DNA of 64,000 nucleotides from Lachnospiraceae bacterium (GTDB taxonomy: Bacteria > Bacillota > Clostridia > Lachnospirales > Lachnospiraceae), in contig JAFZRY010000027.1 of the NCBI GenBank assembly GCA_017619615.1, forward strand, positions 1 to 64,000, written 5' to 3'. Each line of letters starts with the position of its first letter. Positions within the stretch are counted from its first letter, which is position 1. Positions 693-41,262 of the stretch are shown here, in pieces. A program made the translations under genes and the position numbers. The notes under the pieces were generated by a model. That model was not told the DNA's origin. It saw nothing but the letters and a program-made list of their open reading frames with translations, and did no database searches.

Positions 693-1469
693 TTATTTGT
701 TGATAAACCCGGTGGGTTTTCTCTTCTCCAGGAAGGCGCCCATGCCTTCTTTCTGGTCCGCGGTGGCGAAGCAGGAGCCGAAGGCTTTTTCTTCCTTAAC
801 GACCGCCTGGTCGATGGGAAGGGAGATGCCTTCGTTCATGGCGCGCTTGGCGGCCTGGACGGCGATGGGGGCGTTGTTCGCGATGCGGTTCGCAAGCTTC
901 AGGGCCTGCTCCATAAGTTCTTCCTGCGCGTACACGCTGTTGACCAGGCCGATGCGGTGGGCTTCCGCCGCCTTGATGTTGCGGGCGGAGAAGACCAGTT
1001 CCTTGGCCATGCCGGTGCCCACGATGCGGGCCAGGCGCTGGGTGCCGCCGAAGCCGGGCGTGATGCCCAGGCCGACTTCCGGCTGTCCGAACATGGCGTT
1101 TTCGCTGCAGATGCGGATGTCGCAGGACATGGCCAGTTCGCAGCCGCCGCCCAGCGCGAAGCCGTTCACGGCCGCGATGGTGGGCAGGGGGAACGCTTCC
1201 AGCTTCAGAAAAACGTCATTGCCTTTTTTGCCGAACGCTTCGCCTTCTTCCTTGCTCAGCGTGCTCATTTCGGAAATATCCGCGCCCGCCACGAAGGACT
1301 TTTCACCGGCGCCGGTCACGACCAGGGCACGCAGCTTCTGCGTGTCGATGCCGTCCAGCACTTCGTTCAGTTCTTCCAGGACCTGGGAGCAGAGGGCATT
1401 CAGAACTTTGGGCCGGTTGATGGTGATGATGCCCACCTGACCGCGCTCTTCGAACAGAACCATTTCCAT
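693..1469 (-). CDS. crt: Crotonase / 3-hydroxybutyryl-CoA dehydratase (enoyl-CoA hydratase family)
   Basis: Reversible hydration of crotonyl-CoA to 3-hydroxybutyryl-CoA. The 258-residue length is normal for the family. Visible motifs are the CoA/oxyanion segment FVAGADISEM, the second oxyanion segment GFALGGGCELAMSCDI with the first catalytic Glu, and the second catalytic Glu in PEVGLGITPGFGGTQR. The start ATG (1467-1469) follows AGGAGGTTTCCC. A second ATG two codons later is further from the ribosome site. It is the first gene of a leftward operon with hbd, reading away from gctA. It connects glutaconyl-CoA decarboxylation (product crotonyl-CoA) to butyrate or acetate formation. Confidence 0.95.
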   Translation of the reverse strand: MEMVLFEERGQVGIITINRPKVLNALCSQVLEELNEVLDGIDTQKLRALVVTGAGEKSFVAGADISEMSTLSKEEGEAFGKKGNDVFLKLEAFPLPTIAAVNGFALGGGCELAMSCDIRICSENAMFGQPEVGLGITPGFGGTQRLARIVGTGMAKELVFSARNIKAAEAHRIGLVNSVYAQEELMEQALKLANRIANNAPIAVQAAKRAMNEGISLPIDQAVVKEEKAFGSCFATADQKEGMGAFLEKRKPTGFINK

Positions 1470-1548
1470 GGGAAACCTCCTAAAACAGAGATGGGATCCT
1501 CCGGCAGGAAAAAAGCACGCTCATTGCCGCAGGACATTTTTCAGTTTG

Positions 1549-1578
1549 ATTTTACAAAGAAAGGCAAGGGTCTGTCAA
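1549..1578 (-). promoter_or_regulatory. Probable sigma-A promoter for crt-hbd
   Basis: On the minus strand, TTGACA (1573-1578) and TAAAAT (1549-1554) are separated by 18 bp, about 80 bp upstream of the crt start. No operator was recognised. Assigned by consensus match only. Confidence 0.6.
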
Positions 1579-1690
1579 GGCCAAAAGACTATTTTTCCTT
1601 TCGAATTGCGAAAGAGGCCGGCCGGCCCATATAAAAAAAAGAATAAGAAAAATTTTACCTTTCAAATCGTCAATAAACGGAAGGTTTTAT

Positions 1691-1719
1691 TTGACACCGT
1701 GTGCTTGCCTTGCTAAAAT
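1691..1719 (+). promoter_or_regulatory. Probable sigma-A promoter for the gct-gcd-hgd genes
   Basis: TTGACA (1691-1696), a 17-bp spacer and TAAAAT (1714-1719) lie about 50 bp upstream of the gctA start, which has its own AAAGGAG ribosome site. This is one of the best consensus matches in the window. With the crt promoter it forms a divergent control region of about 300 bp (1470-1767) that contains no other gene. Confidence 0.75.
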
Positions 1720-1767
1720 ATAACATGAAAAACCATGATAACCTAACCGAAAGGAGACTCATTTATC

Positions 1768-2865
1768 ATGAACAAAGTGTGCACCTTGTCAGAAGCCGTT
1801 GAAAAGTACGTGCAGAACGGCGACACGATCTGTTTCGGCGGTTTTACGACCAACCGGAAACCCTATGCTGTGGCGTACGAGATCCTGCGCCAGGGGAAGA
1901 CGGACTTCACTGTGTGGGCCGGTCCTGCCGGCGGCGACTGGGATATGCTGATCGGGGAAGGGCGCGTGAAGGTATACATCAACTGCTATACCGCCAACTC
2001 CGGTTACACCAACGTGTCCCGCCGCTTCCGCGCCGCGATCGAAAAGGGCGAAATGATCTATGAAGACTACAGCCAGGACGTGTTGATGCTGCAGCTTCAT
2101 GCCGCCTCCCTGGGCCTTCCCTTCCTGCCGGTGCGCCTGATGATGGGCTCCGGTCTGTGCGAGTACTGGGGCATCACCGAAGAGGTCCGCAAGACGCTGC
2201 CCAGCGTGGACGACTTAAAGCTGGCTTACGTCGACAACCCTTTCAACCCCGGTGAAAAGGTCGTGGCCGTTCCCGTCCCGAAGCTGGACTGCGCGGTCAT
2301 CCATGTGCAGCAGGCCTCCCCGGACGGCACCTGCATCCTGATGGGCGATGAGTTCCACGACGTGGATATCGCCATCGCCGCGAAGCGCACCATCGTGACC
2401 TGCGAAGAGATCGTCAGCGACGAATACATCCGCCGCGATCCCGCCGCCACCAAGATCTTCGGCGAGTGCGTGGATGCCGTGGTCCGTGCCCCTTACGGCG
2501 CCTGGCCCAGCCAGTGCTACGGCTACTATGACAACGACGACAAGGCCCTGAAGGAATACGACAAGGCTTCGAACTATGTGGACGCCGCGGACGCCGCCGC
2601 GAAACTCGCGAAGGCCGCCGCGAAGGCCCGCAAGGCCGCGGATGCCAAGCCCGGCGACGCCAAGCTGGAAGCCGCCGCCGTCAAGGCGGAAGAAGCCGCG
2701 AAGGCCTGCGCCGACGGCACCAAGGTCCCCGAGACCTTCAAGGATTATGTGGACAAGTGGGTCTACAGCGTCAAGACGCATGAGGAACTGCTGGACAAGA
2801 TCGGCGGCAACCGCCTGATGAACCTGAAGATCGAGCCGCATCTGGGCTATTCCACGAGACACTGA
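1768..2865 (+). CDS. gctA: Glutaconate CoA-transferase subunit A
   Basis: With GctB it moves CoA from acetyl-CoA or glutaconyl-CoA to (R)-2-hydroxyglutarate, activating it for dehydration. The protein has 365 residues; Acidaminococcus GctA has about 320. The N-terminal part is a normal family I CoA-transferase alpha subunit (GDTICFGGFTTNRKP near residue 18; RLMMGSGLCEYWG near 125). The extra length is an Ala/Lys/Glu-rich stretch of about 45 residues starting near residue 270, before the conserved tail (YVDKWVYSVKTHEELLDKIG). The insert looks like a charged helix of low complexity. Start ATG after AAAGGAG; gctB follows 18 bp downstream. First gene of the glutamate fermentation operon. Confidence 0.93.
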   Translation: MNKVCTLSEAVEKYVQNGDTICFGGFTTNRKPYAVAYEILRQGKTDFTVWAGPAGGDWDMLIGEGRVKVYINCYTANSGYTNVSRRFRAAIEKGEMIYEDYSQDVLMLQLHAASLGLPFLPVRLMMGSGLCEYWGITEEVRKTLPSVDDLKLAYVDNPFNPGEKVVAVPVPKLDCAVIHVQQASPDGTCILMGDEFHDVDIAIAAKRTIVTCEEIVSDEYIRRDPAATKIFGECVDAVVRAPYGAWPSQCYGYYDNDDKALKEYDKASNYVDAADAAAKLAKAAAKARKAADAKPGDAKLEAAAVKAEEAAKACADGTKVPETFKDYVDKWVYSVKTHEELLDKIGGNRLMNLKIEPHLGYSTRH

Positions 2866-2883
2866 GGCAGGAGGCATAGAGCA

Positions 2884-3699
2884 ATGTTTGATTACAAGAA
2901 AGTCGGATATACGATGTCCGAAATGCAGGCGTACGCCATTGCGAAGAACATCAAAGAGAACCAGATCGTCATCGTCGGCACGGGCCTGCCGCTGATCGGC
3001 GCGTCCCTGGCCAAGGCGGTGGTCTGCCCCAGCTGCCATCCCATCGTGGAGAGCGGCCTGATGGACTGCTCCCCCGTGGAAGTGCCCCGCTCCGTCGGCG
3101 ACCTGCGCTTCATGGCGCACTGCGCGGTGCAGTGGCCCAACATCCGCTTCGTGGGCTTCGAAGCCAACGAGTGGCTGCATGACACCGACCGTCTGATTGC
3201 TTTCATCGGCGGCGCCCAGATCGACCCGTACGGCAACGTGAACTCCACCTGCATCTACGGCAAGGGCGACTACATCAAGCCCCAGGTGCGCTTCACCGGT
3301 TCCGGCGGCGCCAACGGCATCGCGGGCTTCTGCAACACCATCATCATGATCAAGCTGGACAAGACCAAATTCGTGAACAAGGTCGACTACATCACCTCCT
3401 GCGGGTGGATGGACGGCCCCGGCGGCCGCGAAAGAGTCGGCCTGCCCGGCAACCGCGGCCCTCAGATGGTCGTGACCGACATGGGCATCATGAAGTTCGA
3501 CGAAGAGACCAAGCGCATGTATCTGGCTTATTACTATCCTTACACCACGCCCGAAGAGATCAAGGCGGCCATTCCGGACTTCCCGCTGATCGTGGACGAA
3601 CGGGCGCAGCTGATGGAAGGTCCCAGCCCCGAGATCATCCGCACCATCCGCGAGGATATCGACCCCGGCCAGGCTTTCATCAAGGTCCCGAAGGAATAA
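2884..3699 (+). CDS. gctB: Glutaconate CoA-transferase subunit B
   Basis: Catalytic partner of GctA. The 271-residue length matches the family. The CoA-transferase active-site glutamate is visible as Glu56 in HPIVESGLMD, corresponding to Glu54 of the Acidaminococcus enzyme. Glycine-rich segments such as VGTGLPLIGASLA (near residue 31) and GSGGANGIAGFCN fit the family I CoA-transferase fold. A ribosome site (GGCAGGAGG) precedes ATG 2884. It lies 18 bp after gctA and 18 bp before gcdA, clearly in one operon. Confidence 0.95.
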   Translation: MFDYKKVGYTMSEMQAYAIAKNIKENQIVIVGTGLPLIGASLAKAVVCPSCHPIVESGLMDCSPVEVPRSVGDLRFMAHCAVQWPNIRFVGFEANEWLHDTDRLIAFIGGAQIDPYGNVNSTCIYGKGDYIKPQVRFTGSGGANGIAGFCNTIIMIKLDKTKFVNKVDYITSCGWMDGPGGRERVGLPGNRGPQMVVTDMGIMKFDEETKRMYLAYYYPYTTPEEIKAAIPDFPLIVDERAQLMEGPSPEIIRTIREDIDPGQAFIKVPKE

Positions 3700-3717
3700 T
3701 TAAGGAGGAGATATACC

Positions 3718-5484
3718 ATGGGTTTCTATTCCATGCCCGGCTATTTTCAGGCGATGCCCCAGGTGGGCAAACCTTTAAAGGCCCGGAACGAACAAAACGA
3801 GCAGGCCATCCTGGCCATTGAGAACGAACTGCATCAGGCTGCCTACAACGCCATCCAGGCCGGCAAGGCCGACGAAGCCGTGAACAAGAGCGGTGAGATG
3901 ACTGCCATGCAGCGTCTGGAGTACCTGGTCGATCCCGGTACCTGGTGCCCGCTGAACAGCCTGTACAACCCGCAGCACAACTCCCACGGCTCCACCGGCA
4001 TCGTGAAGGGCCTGGGCCGCATCAGCGGCCACTGGGCGCTGATCGTCGCTTCCGACAACAAGAAGCTGGCCGGCGCCTGGATCCCCGGCCAGGCGGACAA
4101 CCTGCTGCGCGCTTCCGACACCGCGAAGTGCCTGCACATCCCGCTGGTCTACGTGCTGAACTGCTCGGGCGTCAAGCTGGACGAGCAGGAGAAGGTGTAT
4201 CCGAACCGCCGCGGCGGCGGCACGCCTTTCTACCGCAACGTGGAACTGGAGCAGATGGGCATCCCGGTCATCGTCGGCATCTTCGGGACCAACCCGGCCG
4301 GCGGCGGCTACCACTCCATCAGCCCGACCATCCTGATCGCGCACCAGAAGGCCAACATGGCCGTCGGCGGCGCCGGCATCGTGGGCGGCATGAACCCGAA
4401 GGGCTATGTGGATGAAGAGGCTGCCATGGCGCTGATCGAGGCCGGCAAGGGCCTGGTCGCGACGCCTCCCGGATCCGTCCCGATCCACTACGGCGAGACC
4501 GGTTTCTTCCGCGAAGTGTACGCGGACGACTACGGCGTACTGGACGGCATCAAGAAGTACATGTCCTTCCTGCCCGCCTACAATCCGGAATTCTTCCGCG
4601 TGGACGATCCCGCTCTGCCCGCGCTGGATCCCAACGACCTGTACAGCCTGGTCCCGATGGACAAGAAGCGCACCTACGACATTTATGACGTCATCGGCCG
4701 CATCTTCGACAAGTCCCAGTTCCTGGAATACAAGAAGGGCTACGGTCCGGAGATCGTCGCCGGTCTGGCAAAGGCGGAAGGCCTGCTGGTCGGCGTCATC
4801 GCCAACGTCCAGGGCCTGCTGATGCACTATCCGGAATACAAGCTGGGCCAGAACCCCAACTCCGTGGGTATCGGCGGCAAGCTGTACCGTCAGGGCCTGA
4901 TCAAGATGAACGAGTTCGTGACGCTGTGCGCGCGTGACAAACTGCCCATCGTCTGGATCCAGGATACCACCGGCATCGACGTCGGCGACGACGCCGAGAA
5001 GGCCGAACTGCTGGGCCTGGGCCAGTCCCTGATCTACTCCATCCAGAACAGCCACGTGCCGCAGCTGGAGATCACGCTCCGCAAGGGCACCGCCGCGGCG
5101 CACTACGTCATGGGCGGCCCGCAGGGCAACGACACCAACGCCTTCTCCCTGGGCACCGCCGCCACCGAGATCTACGTCATGCACGGCGAGACCGCCGCGG
5201 CCGCCATGTATTCCCGCCGTCTGGCGAAGGAATACAAGGCCGGCGAATCCCTGGAAGGCACCATCGCGAAGATGAACGAGATCATCCAGGATTACGCCGC
5301 CAAATCCCGTCCGTTCGCCTGCGGCGAACTCGGCCTGGTCGATGAGATCGTGAACATGAACATGATGCGCAACTACGTCGTGGCGTTCGCGTATTCCGTA
5401 TACCAGAACCCGACTCAGATCTGCCCGTTCCATCAGATGCTGAGCCCGCGCACCATGCGTGATTTCGTCACCTACAAGAAATAA
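3718..5484 (+). CDS. gcdA: Glutaconyl-CoA decarboxylase alpha subunit (carboxyltransferase)
   Basis: Transfers the carboxyl group of glutaconyl-CoA to biotin on the GcdC carrier, giving crotonyl-CoA. In the complete complex, membrane subunit GcdB then couples decarboxylation to sodium export. The 588 residues match the Acidaminococcus subunit (587). Both halves of the carboxyltransferase fold are seen: AGGGYHSISPTILIAHQKAN and GGAGIVGGMNPKGY in the N-terminal half, and IVWIQDTTGIDVGDDAEKAE and AAHYVMGGPQGNDTNAF in the C-terminal half. The start ATG follows AAGGAGG. Subunits B, C and D are not in this window, so the biotin carrier and sodium pump must be encoded elsewhere. Biotin for GcdC fits the bioY/birA pair at 45-47 kb. 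Confidence 0.95.
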   Translation: MGFYSMPGYFQAMPQVGKPLKARNEQNEQAILAIENELHQAAYNAIQAGKADEAVNKSGEMTAMQRLEYLVDPGTWCPLNSLYNPQHNSHGSTGIVKGLGRISGHWALIVASDNKKLAGAWIPGQADNLLRASDTAKCLHIPLVYVLNCSGVKLDEQEKVYPNRRGGGTPFYRNVELEQMGIPVIVGIFGTNPAGGGYHSISPTILIAHQKANMAVGGAGIVGGMNPKGYVDEEAAMALIEAGKGLVATPPGSVPIHYGETGFFREVYADDYGVLDGIKKYMSFLPAYNPEFFRVDDPALPALDPNDLYSLVPMDKKRTYDIYDVIGRIFDKSQFLEYKKGYGPEIVAGLAKAEGLLVGVIANVQGLLMHYPEYKLGQNPNSVGIGGKLYRQGLIKMNEFVTLCARDKLPIVWIQDTTGIDVGDDAEKAELLGLGQSLIYSIQNSHVPQLEITLRKGTAAAHYVMGGPQGNDTNAFSLGTAATEIYVMHGETAAAAMYSRRLAKEYKAGESLEGTIAKMNEIIQDYAAKSRPFACGELGLVDEIVNMNMMRNYVVAFAYSVYQNPTQICPFHQMLSPRTMRDFVTYKK

Positions 5485-37212: not shown

Positions 37213-37285
37213 GGGGCATTAGCGCAGCTGGGAGCGCGCCACACTGGCAGTGTGGAGGTCAGGGGTTCAAGTCCCCTATGCTCCA
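37213..37285 (+). tRNA. tRNA-Ala (GGC anticodon)
   Basis: 73 nt. Acceptor stem GGGGCAT/ATGCTCC with the G3-U70 pair that marks alanine, D arm GCGC/GCGC, anticodon stem CCACA/TGTGG with loop CTGGCAG (anticodon GGC), T arm AGGGG-TTCAAGT-CCCCT and discriminator A. CCA is not encoded. Confidence 0.97.
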
Positions 37286-37329
37286 TGAAAAGGGGCGGTT
37301 CGTATCGTAAGATGGAACGCCCCTTTTCA
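37286..37329 (+). terminator. Terminator after tRNA-Ala
   Basis: A perfect 12-bp stem TGAAAAGGGGCG (37286-37297) with 37318-37329, extended by TTC/GAA inside. The T run is inside the 3' arm (CCCCTTTTCA). Confidence 0.8.
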
Positions 37330-37482
37330 ATGAAATTCGCTCCTGGCAGAGCGAGTGAAAGGCTGCTACGCAGCATGAAATGGGCATTGCCCATGAAATG
37401 CCGACGCATGGATAAGAGCGAATTTCATTTCATATCGAGCGAAGCGAGATATTTCATTCTTCATCATTCATCATTCATCCCA
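37330..37482. repeat. Cluster of short palindromes separated by ATGAAAT-like words
   Basis: Includes GCTC/GAGC, GCTGC-TAC-GCAGC, GGGCATTGCCC and ATCGAGCGAAGCGAGAT, joined by repeated TGAAAT/ATTTCA words, with TTCGCTC near the start and GAGCGAA near the end forming an outer pair. It then passes into CATTCTTCATCATTCATCATTCATCC. No coding frame. It directly precedes the four-helix-bundle gene and may be part of the same unit. Confidence 0.5.
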
Positions 37483-37496
37483 ATTAAAGGAGCATT

Positions 37497-37854
37497 ATGA
37501 AGGAAAACAAACTGCGGGAGATGTCCCTGGAGTTTTCTGTTGGAATAATCCAATTATGCGAATCCGTTAAAGGCCATGCGTCTCTGGTCAATCAGCTGGA
37601 GCGGTCGGGCACGTCTGTCGCGGCCAATATCCATGAGGCAAATCATGCTCACAGCAGGGCGGATTTTATTGCGAAACTTCAGATAGCCCTTTCAGATAGC
37701 CCTGAAAGAATGCTTTGAAACGGAATACTGGCTGGAGTTGTTCCAATTGACGCAGATCGGAAACCCGGACAGAGAAAAAGAATTACTTCATCAGTGCGGG
37801 ACTATCCGCCGTCTCTTCATCGCCTCCCTGAACACCGCCAAGGGCCGCAAATAA
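37497..37854 (+). pseudogene. Four-helix-bundle protein (23S rRNA intervening-sequence protein type), frameshifted
   Basis: The frame starts at ATG 37497 after AAAGGAG and reads MSLEFSVGIIQLCESVKG and RSGTSVAANIHEANHA, the signature of the small four-helix-bundle family related to IVS-encoded proteins and Avd. A perfect 13-bp tandem duplication (37678-37703) shifts the frame. Removing one copy restores IALKECFETEYWLELFQL and an open frame to the stop at 37852-37854, giving 114 residues, a normal length. The lesion is very recent because both repeat copies are identical. It could be reversible by slippage. Confidence 0.9.
37678..37703 (+). repeat. Perfect 13-bp tandem duplication causing a frameshift
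   Basis: TTCAGATAGCCCT occurs twice without any spacer (37678-37690 and 37691-37703) inside the four-helix-bundle gene. Confidence 0.95.
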
Positions 37855-39255: not shown

Positions 39256-39840
39256 ATGGGCCTTTTATCGAAATTTTTAAAGAAAGTGGCGAATGAAACG
39301 GCGGAGGATCTGTCCTCCAAGGAAGCTAAGAAGATCGGCAGCTTCTTCTCGGAGAAAATCTCCGAGATCGTGGATCAGGGCAAGAAGGCGGATCAGGAAC
39401 TGGCCGCGCATCAGCAGAGCGCGTCGTCCTCCGTCTCGGAAGCTGTGCATGAAGCGGTGAATGAAGCGGCGGAAGAAGGCGAAGTGACGATCCCCGGCAA
39501 TTCCTGGGGTCCTACGATGCCGCTGGAAGAGTGCCAGTTCAACTTCCCCGGACCGTACACCGCGTACTTTGAGAAGATCCTCGGCGAAGAATTCTCCGCG
39601 TTCCGCCTGAACAAGGAAATGATCCCCAGCGGCCGCGGCGCCGTCTACACGCTGCTGGACGGGGAAAAGAGAGCGCTGGTGCTGGAAGTTCTGAACAGCA
39701 GCTCCGTGCGCAACAAACTGCGCAAGACCTGCCGGATGAGCGGCACGCCTTACGTGCGCCTGTATCACGATCACGACGGCTGGTGGAACACCCGCGCCTA
39801 CGTCGTGGAACGCTGCAGGAAGGCGATGGCGGGCGAATAA
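39256..39840 (+). CDS. Unknown protein with a conserved C-terminal domain
   Basis: 194 residues, predicted soluble. Residues 1-75 are helical and charged, with an Ala/Ser/Glu-rich middle (VHEAVNEAAEEGEV). Residues about 85-194 form a compact domain (FPGPYTAYFEKILGEEFSAF, VYTLLDGEKRALVLEVLNSS, TPYVRLYHDHDGWWNTRAYV). The pattern of a hydrophobic strand with Glu followed by a basic helix recalls small endonuclease-like folds, but no catalytic set can be assigned. I do not recognise a named family. Very strong ribosome site (AAAGGAGG). Followed by a terminator and then the candidate RNA and reverse transcriptase. Confidence 0.75.
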   Translation: MGLLSKFLKKVANETAEDLSSKEAKKIGSFFSEKISEIVDQGKKADQELAAHQQSASSSVSEAVHEAVNEAAEEGEVTIPGNSWGPTMPLEECQFNFPGPYTAYFEKILGEEFSAFRLNKEMIPSGRGAVYTLLDGEKRALVLEVLNSSSVRNKLRKTCRMSGTPYVRLYHDHDGWWNTRAYVVERCRKAMAGE

Positions 39841-39870: not shown

Positions 39871-39906
39871 GGAGACAGGGGAAGCCCCGCTTCCCCGCTC
39901 CTTTTT
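39871..39906 (+). terminator. Terminator before the reverse-transcriptase region
   Basis: Stem GGGGAAG (39878-39884) with CTTCCCC (39890-39896), extended outside by GGAG/CTCC, followed by TTTTT (39902-39906). Confidence 0.85.
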
Positions 39907-40042
39907 GGCGGAAAGAGAACGCCTGGCGCCTGGGGCGGACCCGGCCCGGACCATCCTTACGGCTTCTCAGGCAGCCGGTCCCGGTACGGTCCCGTACATC
40001 CAAGAATTTTCTTGGATTTAATGATTTCTCTTTCCGCTTTTT
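39907..40042 (+). ncRNA. Candidate structured RNA upstream of the reverse transcriptase
   Basis: GCGGAAAGAGAA (39908-39919) is the exact complement of TTCTCTTTCCGC (40026-40037), with a further G-U pair outside. This 12-13 bp stem closes about 106 nt that contain GTACGGTCCCGTAC (39984-39997), an ATCCAAGAA/TTCTTGGAT palindrome (39999-40018) and several GC-rich pairings. TTTTT follows the right arm. The region has no coding frame, sits between a terminator and the reverse-transcriptase start (15 nt later), and has the inverted-repeat closure seen in RNA partners of bacterial reverse transcriptases. Inferred from sequence only; no known RNA family recognised. Confidence 0.5.
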
Positions 40043-40056
40043 CTGTGATTTAGCCT

Positions 40057-41262
40057 ATGTCTCTGCTGGACCGCCTCCCGGACCCTTCGGCCTGGGAGAG
40101 ATTTTACGCATACAAGACGTCGCTGGCCTGCCCGAAGGATTTCGCGAAAGAACTGCGGACCTTCATCGATGAGCAGGCTTATCTTTCTGTCTGCGAAAGC
40201 ATCCGCGCCGGCGAAGCATTCCCGCTGCCGCGCAAGGCGGTCATCAGTAAGCAGTATTCGCAGAAAAAACGTACTGTCTACATCTATCCCCGCCGCGAAA
40301 ACATCGTCCTGAAACTCCTGACCTACCTGCTGCTGCGGAATTACGACCACATCTTCAGCCGCGGTCTGTATTCGTTCCGTCCGGGCCGCTCCGCCAAGGA
40401 TGCGGTGCGCATGCTGCAGCGGAAACTGCGCGGCCGCCGCTGGTATGCCTACAAAGCGGATATCAGCGATTATTTCAACTCCCTGCCCGTGGACCGTTTT
40501 CTGCCCGTGCTGAAAGAAGCGGTGGGAGAGGATGAGGCGCTGTACGCGTTCCTGAGCCGCCTGCTGGCCGAGCCGCGGGTGCGCGACGGGCGCGACGTCA
40601 TCGAAGAACAGAAGGGGATTATGGCGGGCACGCCGCTGGCCTCATTCTATGCGAACCTGTACCTGAAAGACCTGGACGCGCACTTTGCCGCCACGGACAT
40701 CCCGTACGCGCGCTATTCCGACGACATCATCCTGTTCACGGAGACCCGGGAGGAGGCGGAGGCGCAGGCGGCGTACGTGCGCGGTTTTCTGGCAGAAAAG
40801 GGCCTGCGCATCAATCCGAAGAAGGAGACGTTCTTCAGCCCGGACGACGGCTGGATCTTCCTGGGCGTCTGCTCCCGCGGCGGCGTCACGGACATCGCCC
40901 CGGTCTCCCTGCAGAAAATGAAGGCCAAGATGCGCCGCAAGACGCGGGCCCTGAAACGCTGGCAGGAGCGCAACGGCCTGGAAGAAGAAAAAGCCGCCAA
41001 GGCCTTTATCCGCGTCTTCAACCGCAAACTTTTCGAAAGCCCCGGCGACAACGAACTCAGCTGGAGCCACTGGTTCTTCCCCGTGATCGATACCGCGGAG
41101 AGCCTGCAGATCATCGACCGCTACGCCCAGGACTGCCTCCGCTACCTCCTGAGCGGCAAGCGCACGAAGGCGCGCTTTAACGTGCGGTACGAGGACCTGA
41201 AAAGGCTGGGATACCGCAGTCTGGTGCACGAGTTTTACAAGAGGGAAGAGGAGAAACAATAA
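40057..41262 (+). CDS. Stand-alone reverse transcriptase of unassigned class
   Basis: 401 residues. RT blocks seen: RTVYIYPRRENIVLKLLTYL and FSRGLYSFRPGRSAKDAV (RT1-2), WYAYKADISDYFNSLPVD with the first catalytic Asp (RT3), GIMAGTPLASFYANLYLKDL (RT4), YARYSDDIILFTETREEAE with the catalytic pair as YSDD (RT5), GLRINPKKETFFSP (RT6) and WIFLGV (RT7), then a basic helical thumb (KMKAKMRRKTRALKRWQERN) and a C-terminal tail of about 100 residues. There is no maturase, endonuclease or Cas1 domain, no retron VTG motif and no DGR-type SQ motif. ATG 40057 is preceded by an in-frame TAG and no ribosome site, so translation may be low or controlled. Follows a candidate ncRNA. Confidence 0.88.
   Translation: MSLLDRLPDPSAWERFYAYKTSLACPKDFAKELRTFIDEQAYLSVCESIRAGEAFPLPRKAVISKQYSQKKRTVYIYPRRENIVLKLLTYLLLRNYDHIFSRGLYSFRPGRSAKDAVRMLQRKLRGRRWYAYKADISDYFNSLPVDRFLPVLKEAVGEDEALYAFLSRLLAEPRVRDGRDVIEEQKGIMAGTPLASFYANLYLKDLDAHFAATDIPYARYSDDIILFTETREEAEAQAAYVRGFLAEKGLRINPKKETFFSPDDGWIFLGVCSRGGVTDIAPVSLQKMKAKMRRKTRALKRWQERNGLEEEKAAKAFIRVFNRKLFESPGDNELSWSHWFFPVIDTAESLQIIDRYAQDCLRYLLSGKRTKARFNVRYEDLKRLGYRSLVHEFYKREEEKQ

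Follow-up and report, generated by a model that had tools for sequence, protein, structure and literature searches.

The question raised by this locus is what kind of system is formed by a reverse transcriptase (RT) gene and the inverted repeat that precedes it in the genome of a member of the Lachnospiraceae. The whole stretch of DNA that was analysed, referred to here as the window, is 64,000 nucleotides long, and the RT gene occupies positions 40057 to 41262 of its forward strand. The preliminary description of this DNA had regarded the enzyme as a stand-alone RT of an unassigned class, accompanied by a structured RNA. As to the identity of the parts, it is virtually certain that the locus is a three-part system of the UG26 class and DRT type, composed of a COG2852-like partner protein, a non-coding RNA (ncRNA) of the RT-5 family and the RT itself, all encoded on the forward strand.

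Components of the UG26 unit

The RT comprises 401 amino acids, with the active site RYSDD, and its residues 1-398 match the PADLOC profile RT_UG26 at 576.3 bits, well above the other classes (general RT, 127 bits; UG27, 121.4; UG4, 101; Cas1_IIIb, 97; UG17, 90.5; Drt9, 83); the enzyme also matches RVT_1. This score rules out an unassigned RT class, and the RNA is likewise a member of a named family, RF03026. All 22 aligned RT homologues match RT_UG26, and also the UG27, UG17 (DRT10) and Drt9 models. The catalytic aspartates, rightly described earlier as intact, are D135, D222 and D223, and they are present in 81/81 aligned homologues; the AF2 model of the enzyme has a mean pLDDT of 90.9. Near the C terminus, Y378 is kept in 80 of the 81 RTs, Y393 in 69 and Y394 in 68, and from this conservation Y378 is a possible priming residue for protein-primed synthesis of the kind that marks DRT9 and DRT10. 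The absence of maturase and retron features was also borne out. A group II intron maturase is rejected at 114.1 bits against the cut-off of 300 for NCBIfam group_II_RT_mat, and a retron at 47.9 bits for the best NCBIfam retron model, below its cut-off of 235; the RT also lacks VTG, the mark of retron RTs. The window has no Shine-Dalgarno sequence before the RT, as had been noted, but a Shine-Dalgarno-like string precedes 56 of 80 homologues, and its absence is therefore a local trait of the window.

The gene directly upstream (H194, positions 39256 to 39840) had been overlooked as part of the unit, as had the membership of the RNA core in a known family. Its product of 194 amino acids matches the PADLOC profile RTasCOG2852 (PDLC03793, 152.4 bits) over residues 1-191, and because this DRT-associated protein is encoded directly upstream in the window and in most relatives, the term stand-alone does not apply to the RT. 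Of 108 distinct RNAs, 61 have the partner gene immediately upstream and the other 47 lack it there, and all nine partner matches found in 200 genomes adjoin an RT-5 RNA; the sampled RT-5 genomes G004 and G009 yielded no partner match at E 1e-6. In its AF2 model the partner has a long N-terminal helix and a C-terminal domain with a PD-(D/E)xK-like order of strands and helices. Foldseek yielded no confident fold for the partner (best E 0.11), and in the PD-(D/E)xK-like part, residues 98-194, the third strand does not carry the canonical ExK lysine, the invariant E144 being followed by V/L/I-type residues in 13 aligned proteins. Pfam and PHROGs did not place the partner confidently in any family (OmpH scored 20 bits, with a cut-off of 32.4), and it matched no SLATT family in PADLOC or Pfam. 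In most of the window's genus, partner identities of 31-51% are found beside RT identities of 60-66%, which shows that the partner evolves fast. Several variants of the arrangement were observed. Locus L014 (3661-4803) encodes a partner of 381 amino acids in which the COG2852-like domain apparently occurs twice, L051 (1501-3121) has the order RNA, partner, RT in place of the usual partner, RNA, RT, and in L018 (482-2607) an ORF of 401 amino acids separates the partner gene from the RNA.

Databases already listed each of these parts, with labels that say little, and together they form a three-part system with a predicted product, repeats of ATTAAATC. Both window proteins match the candidate DRT components RT_UG26 and RTasCOG2852 over nearly their whole length, and these PADLOC models name proteins, with neither a function nor an RNA attached in the material consulted. 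The Rfam family RF03026 shares the core fold and sequence of the window RNA, and its entry gives no function. No functional description of the UG26 RT class was found in the literature searched, which did not include two likely sources, Mestre 2022 and Weinberg 2017. What this analysis contributes is the connection of the parts, the completed fold of the RNA, the arrangements in which RNA and RT are unlinked, the presence throughout a genus and the product prediction; the link between the RNA, UG26 and COG2852 may have been published before.

Fold of the RT-5 RNA and its association with the RT

The complete RNA extends over 130 nt (positions 39908 to 40037) and is bounded by the closing stem P1. 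Its 5' arm, GCGGAAAGAGAA, at 39908-39919 and the exact reverse complement at 40026-40037 are the 12-bp inverted repeat of the preliminary description, with 106 nt enclosed between them. Such a repeat is expected about 0.6 times by chance in 64 kb (a rough estimate, 64000 x 150 x 4^-12), so that the repeat alone may be a product of chance, and P1 is therefore accepted on the alignment of homologues. In the MAFFT alignment A2, which contains 31 RNA rows and was not fitted to the structure, 9 of the 12 pairs of P1 changed on both sides, one changed on one side and two are invariant, with 93.3% of the cells paired. The check for covariation in the outer stem that had been proposed for this locus thus found the repeat kept and its pairs changing together. 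Over the whole structure, A2 exhibits 169 double-change cells, compared to 48.6 +- 5.9 in shuffled alignments, where the relatedness of the rows is ignored, and to at most 37 in slid versions, over which the structure is favoured for cells paired by having been drawn on the window sequence.

Within P1, a pseudoknot of six pairs connects 39928-39933 with 39967-39972, the latter strand lying inside the P3 loop. This helix is 100% paired in A2, with two-sided changes in 4/6 pairs, and is complementary at every pair in 70/70 readable rows of A3, a 75-row alignment that was not fitted to it. The region from 39936 to 39993 holds P2 (39936-39941/39988-39993 and 39944-39952/39977-39985) and P3 (39961-39964/39973-39976), and the P4 hairpin follows at 39998-40017, with two-sided changes in four of its seven pairs. 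The minimum-energy fold of a 136-nt RNA has -60.4 kcal/mol (z -4.2); this single-sequence fold contains P1 and P4 without the consensus P2 and P3, which rest on the Rfam structure and the alignment counts. The P2-P3 loop is variable, with a length of 5-12 nt, and whole hairpins are inserted into it in L037, L043, L051 and L062.

The Rfam model RF03026 (RT-5) matches positions 39924 to 40029 at 79.7 bits, above the gathering cut-off of 45.7, which places the RNA within the family. This model leaves out the greater part of P1, and no pseudoknot appears in its structure line. An extended model that includes both, R1, matches 75 of 78 sources and scores 144.7 bits on the window, a member of its training set; such a model could directly improve RF03026. 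A sub-threshold RT-5 match of 36 bits was observed at L081, with no match to R1. The T5 run reported after the repeat was confirmed at 40038-40042, and at least five T occur within 8 nt after P1 in 56 of 75 homologues, compared to a background of 5.6%; P1 probably also ends the transcript, as judged from this U-run. The RNA is, accordingly, a conserved closed fold (P1, the pseudoknot and P2-P4), usually followed by a U-run. In the interval that separates the partner gene from the RNA, a consensus scan picked up a terminator-like hairpin (39878-39896) with a T-run, together spanning 39878 to 39906.

The association of this RNA with the RT was approached from both sides. Scanning genome contigs with the RT revealed 23 loci with RT identities of 41-97%, mostly from metagenome-assembled genomes (MAGs) of rumen or gut Clostridia and three of them archaeal, and RT-5 exceeds its cut-off at 21 of these loci. 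The other two, L012 and L020, carry the RNA elsewhere in the genome: L012 has it on another contig, whereas in L020 it shares the contig of the RT and lies about 5.7 kb upstream. In the archaeal MAG loci L022 (6240-6341) and L023 (5896-5998), the RNA lies downstream of the RT. Searches with RF03026 alone revealed it in 32/397 genomes of the family, 22/392 of the order, 15/391 of the class and 2/398 of the phylum, samples which overlap and each of which includes the window's genome. An RT homologue is present at all 29 new loci found through the RNA alone (cut by a contig end in L034 and L051, broken in L047), and a further 28 RNA-found loci have an adjacent RT in 27 cases (partial in L071), the RT of L072 being 7.3 kb away. 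Two RT-5 RNAs each were observed in genomes G175 and G039, and in G175 the partner gene lies upstream of both.

Among the 85 genomes of the genus of G1395, the RNA occurs in 52 and the UG26 RT in 51: both are present in 51, neither in 33, the RNA only in one (G1501) and the RT only in none. In 23 of the 51 the RNA lies 6-101 bp upstream of the RT, in 24 the distance upstream is 1.2-9.5 kb, with both on one contig and strand, and in four it is on another contig. In 14 of 30 loci of this genus (L102-L131, with 1.5-kb flanks) a GH43 gene of the opposite strand stands beside the RNA, which makes the gap between RNA and RT look like an ordinary insertion. In three loci of the same genus (L015, at 1035-4682, L017 and L084), opposite-strand genes (GH43, LytTR, DUF7010) lie between the RNA and the RT. 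The RNA and the RT thus co-occur yet are separable, and may even be unlinked. This concordance and the covariation in homologues uphold the earlier view of a unit of RT and ncRNA with a paired closing stem, and a conserved ncRNA accompanying the RT is also a mark of an ncRNA-templated (Class 2) DRT.

A candidate template for repeat synthesis

The reading favoured here is that of a UG26 DRT in which the loop at 40015-40027 of the RNA serves as the template for repeat DNA; taken as a whole, it stands slightly short of an even chance. Its parts differ in strength. The RNA probably serves as a template, by analogy with related systems. Position and class are the grounds for placing that template in the loop that separates P4 from the 3' arm of P1, a guess with evenly balanced chances, and the making of repeat DNA falls a little below that. 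The RT would bind the RT-5 RNA and copy a short template in this loop, the putative template A-B (GATTT-AAT) spanning 40015-40022 and the putative alignment repeat A' (GATTT) spanning 40023-40027. The first three nucleotides of A are shared with the end of P4, at which copying would stop, and the last two of A' are also the first two of the P1 3' arm; both overlaps count against the proposed site. The template would then be reset as the new 3' end anneals again to the repeat (A-B-A', GAUUU-AAU-GAUUU in the window), and the product would be a tandem-repeat single-stranded DNA with the predicted unit ATTAAATC. This product, or its loss, would act with the partner protein where one is present. 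Against the reading stand the lack of a conserved SLATT-like partner and of the COG2852-like one upstream of 47 of the 108 RNAs.

The proposal draws on several known systems. In PMC12632851, PMC13174585 and PMC12483538, DRT2, DRT3a, DRT9 and DRT10 are reported to copy part of their own RNA repeatedly. The A-B-A' element of DRT10, which resets the template, occupies about nt 107-119 of the 137 nt and follows SL5 immediately on the 3' side (positions inferred from the mutants named in PMC12632851). The candidate loop of the window occupies nt 108-120 of the 130 nt, immediately 3' of P4 and within the closing stem. The two share a three-part design, a stem-closed RNA and a proposed template 3' of the last stem-loop, at a similar distance from the ends. 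In contrast, DRT10 has a UG17 RT and the window a UG26 RT (576 versus 90 bits), the DRT10 partner is a SLATT protein whereas that of the window is COG2852-like, the UG26 RNA and RT can be far apart, and the repeats are here predicted from sequence. DRT9, with a UG28 RT and an ncRNA, has a poly-U template according to PMC12483538; the UG26 loops do not, and carry UUUAA or UUCAA with mixed flanks. Were the favoured reading right, a likeness to telomerase would follow, in that an alignment repeat resets a short template and the RNA gene is separable from the RT gene; the resemblance runs via DRT10 alone, and no DNA-end substrate is suggested. It would also add a branch in which the genes for RNA and RT have come apart to the ncRNA-templated DRTs, a group linked to the origin of telomerase.

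The pattern of the loops gives modest support to the predicted repeats. The window loop reads GATTT-AAT-GATTT, and homologues have GCTTT-AAC-GCTTT (L016), GTTTT-AAA-GTTTT (L073), CTGTT-AAATT-CTGTT (L049) and TTCTTTC-AAAG-TTCTTTC (L043). Repeats A-A' of at least 5 nt occur in 12 of 63 loops, compared to 5.0 +- 1.9 when loops are swapped (p 0.0016), and in 11 of 42 loops of the TTTAA class, compared to 4.5 +- 1.7 (p 0.0003), in tests that were run at several scan lengths and with loop shuffles that ignore relatedness. The mean repeat length is also in excess within the TTTAA class (p 0.0085). Over all loops it is 3.11 in both the real and the swapped sets, and the count of repeats of at least 4 nt shows no excess over swapped loops; many loops repeat merely 2-3 nt. 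The swap test left out five of 121 rows that have no readable anchor (L023, L040, L043, L124 and L129), among them the longest repeat, that of L043. The loop of L124 (1501-1640) lacks the conserved AA, yet it has a short direct repeat, ATTT-G-ATTT. Joint change at one A/A' position was also tested by parsimony on the RT tree, whose backbone is poorly resolved, with 59 TTTAA-class loops of 81 RTs after 10 duplicate or partial RT names were dropped. The outcome was negative, with three shared branches (p 0.36), none of them to the same base. Across the genus of the window, the base that precedes TTT and its A' counterpart are A/A in five genomes, C/C in ten and A/C in one; the five with A/A are those that share the window's neighbourhood, and may reflect a single change.

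Other roles of the RNA have to be weighed against this. The copied part may lie elsewhere in the RNA, in the P2-P3 loop or the P4 loop, or the template may yield one defined cDNA instead of repeats. This alternative is unlikely. In its favour, a column scan found direct-repeat peaks elsewhere in the RNA that are as high or higher, with those of the P4 loop (columns 212-213) equalling or exceeding the signal at the proposed site, and the P2-P3 loop varies strongly in sequence and length, like the template loop of DRT10. The whole hairpins inserted in the P2-P3 loop would be odd for a template, however, and its position differs from that of the DRT10 template. Less likely still is an RNA that templates nothing and acts as a scaffold or regulator, either of the partner or of an RT whose DNA is made without a template or from another one. 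The partner gene of L085, which remains next to the RNA and not next to the RT, would fit such a role. Against it, UG17 (DRT10) and Drt9 are among the named UG classes closest by profile, and both are reported to copy their RNA (PMC12632851, PMC12483538). That the RNA is a cis-acting leader of the RT gene, an attenuator or a riboswitch, is highly improbable. The window RNA does stop 19 nt short of the RT start, and its closing stem resembles a terminator, as in a leader, but the distant, unlinked and downstream arrangements described above (L012, L022, L023 and the genus of G1395) refute this as a general account.

Defence or a core cellular role

By analogy with its class alone, anti-phage defence is the likeliest purpose of the unit, and a probable one. 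A domesticated core cellular function in place of phage defence is rather improbable, although part of the distribution speaks for it. The RNA is present in 16/16 genomes of the window's genus, in one copy each, within a genome collection that holds one genome per species, which is unexpected for a patchy defence gene and raises the question of whether such RTs do more than phage defence. The named neighbours are housekeeping genes (SurE, NrnA-like, CCA transferase and BirA), and a scan of viral contigs found no relative of the UG26 RT. Phage (21) and plasmid (922) records matched the RT at less than 60% identity only, and among the matches listed most are group II, retron-type or CRISPR-linked RTs; UG26 is, for its part, listed among the RTs of viruses in PMC10504277. 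Against a core function stand the patchy occurrence elsewhere (32/397 in the family and 52/85 in the genus of G1395), the unrelated neighbourhoods, two or more, that the unit occupies in the window's genus, and the fast evolution of the partner relative to the RT.

A bolder combination of these views would see in UG26 a telomerase-like, repeat-adding RT with a separate and sometimes unlinked gene for its template RNA, a core single-copy element in at least one rumen genus of the Lachnospiraceae and not a patchy defence gene, whose nuclease-fold partner would read or restrain the repeat DNA. This combination is unlikely, and defence remains the probable purpose.

Two further elements were observed upstream of the unit. 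A Gut-1 RNA (RF01706, 62.6 bits), an sRNA family of Rfam, lies at 37328-37404 beside a tRNA-Ala (37213-37285) and is also found in L002. An ORF of 73 amino acids at 37497-37718 partially matches the 23S rRNA-intervening-sequence protein family PF05635, and lies away from any rRNA gene found.
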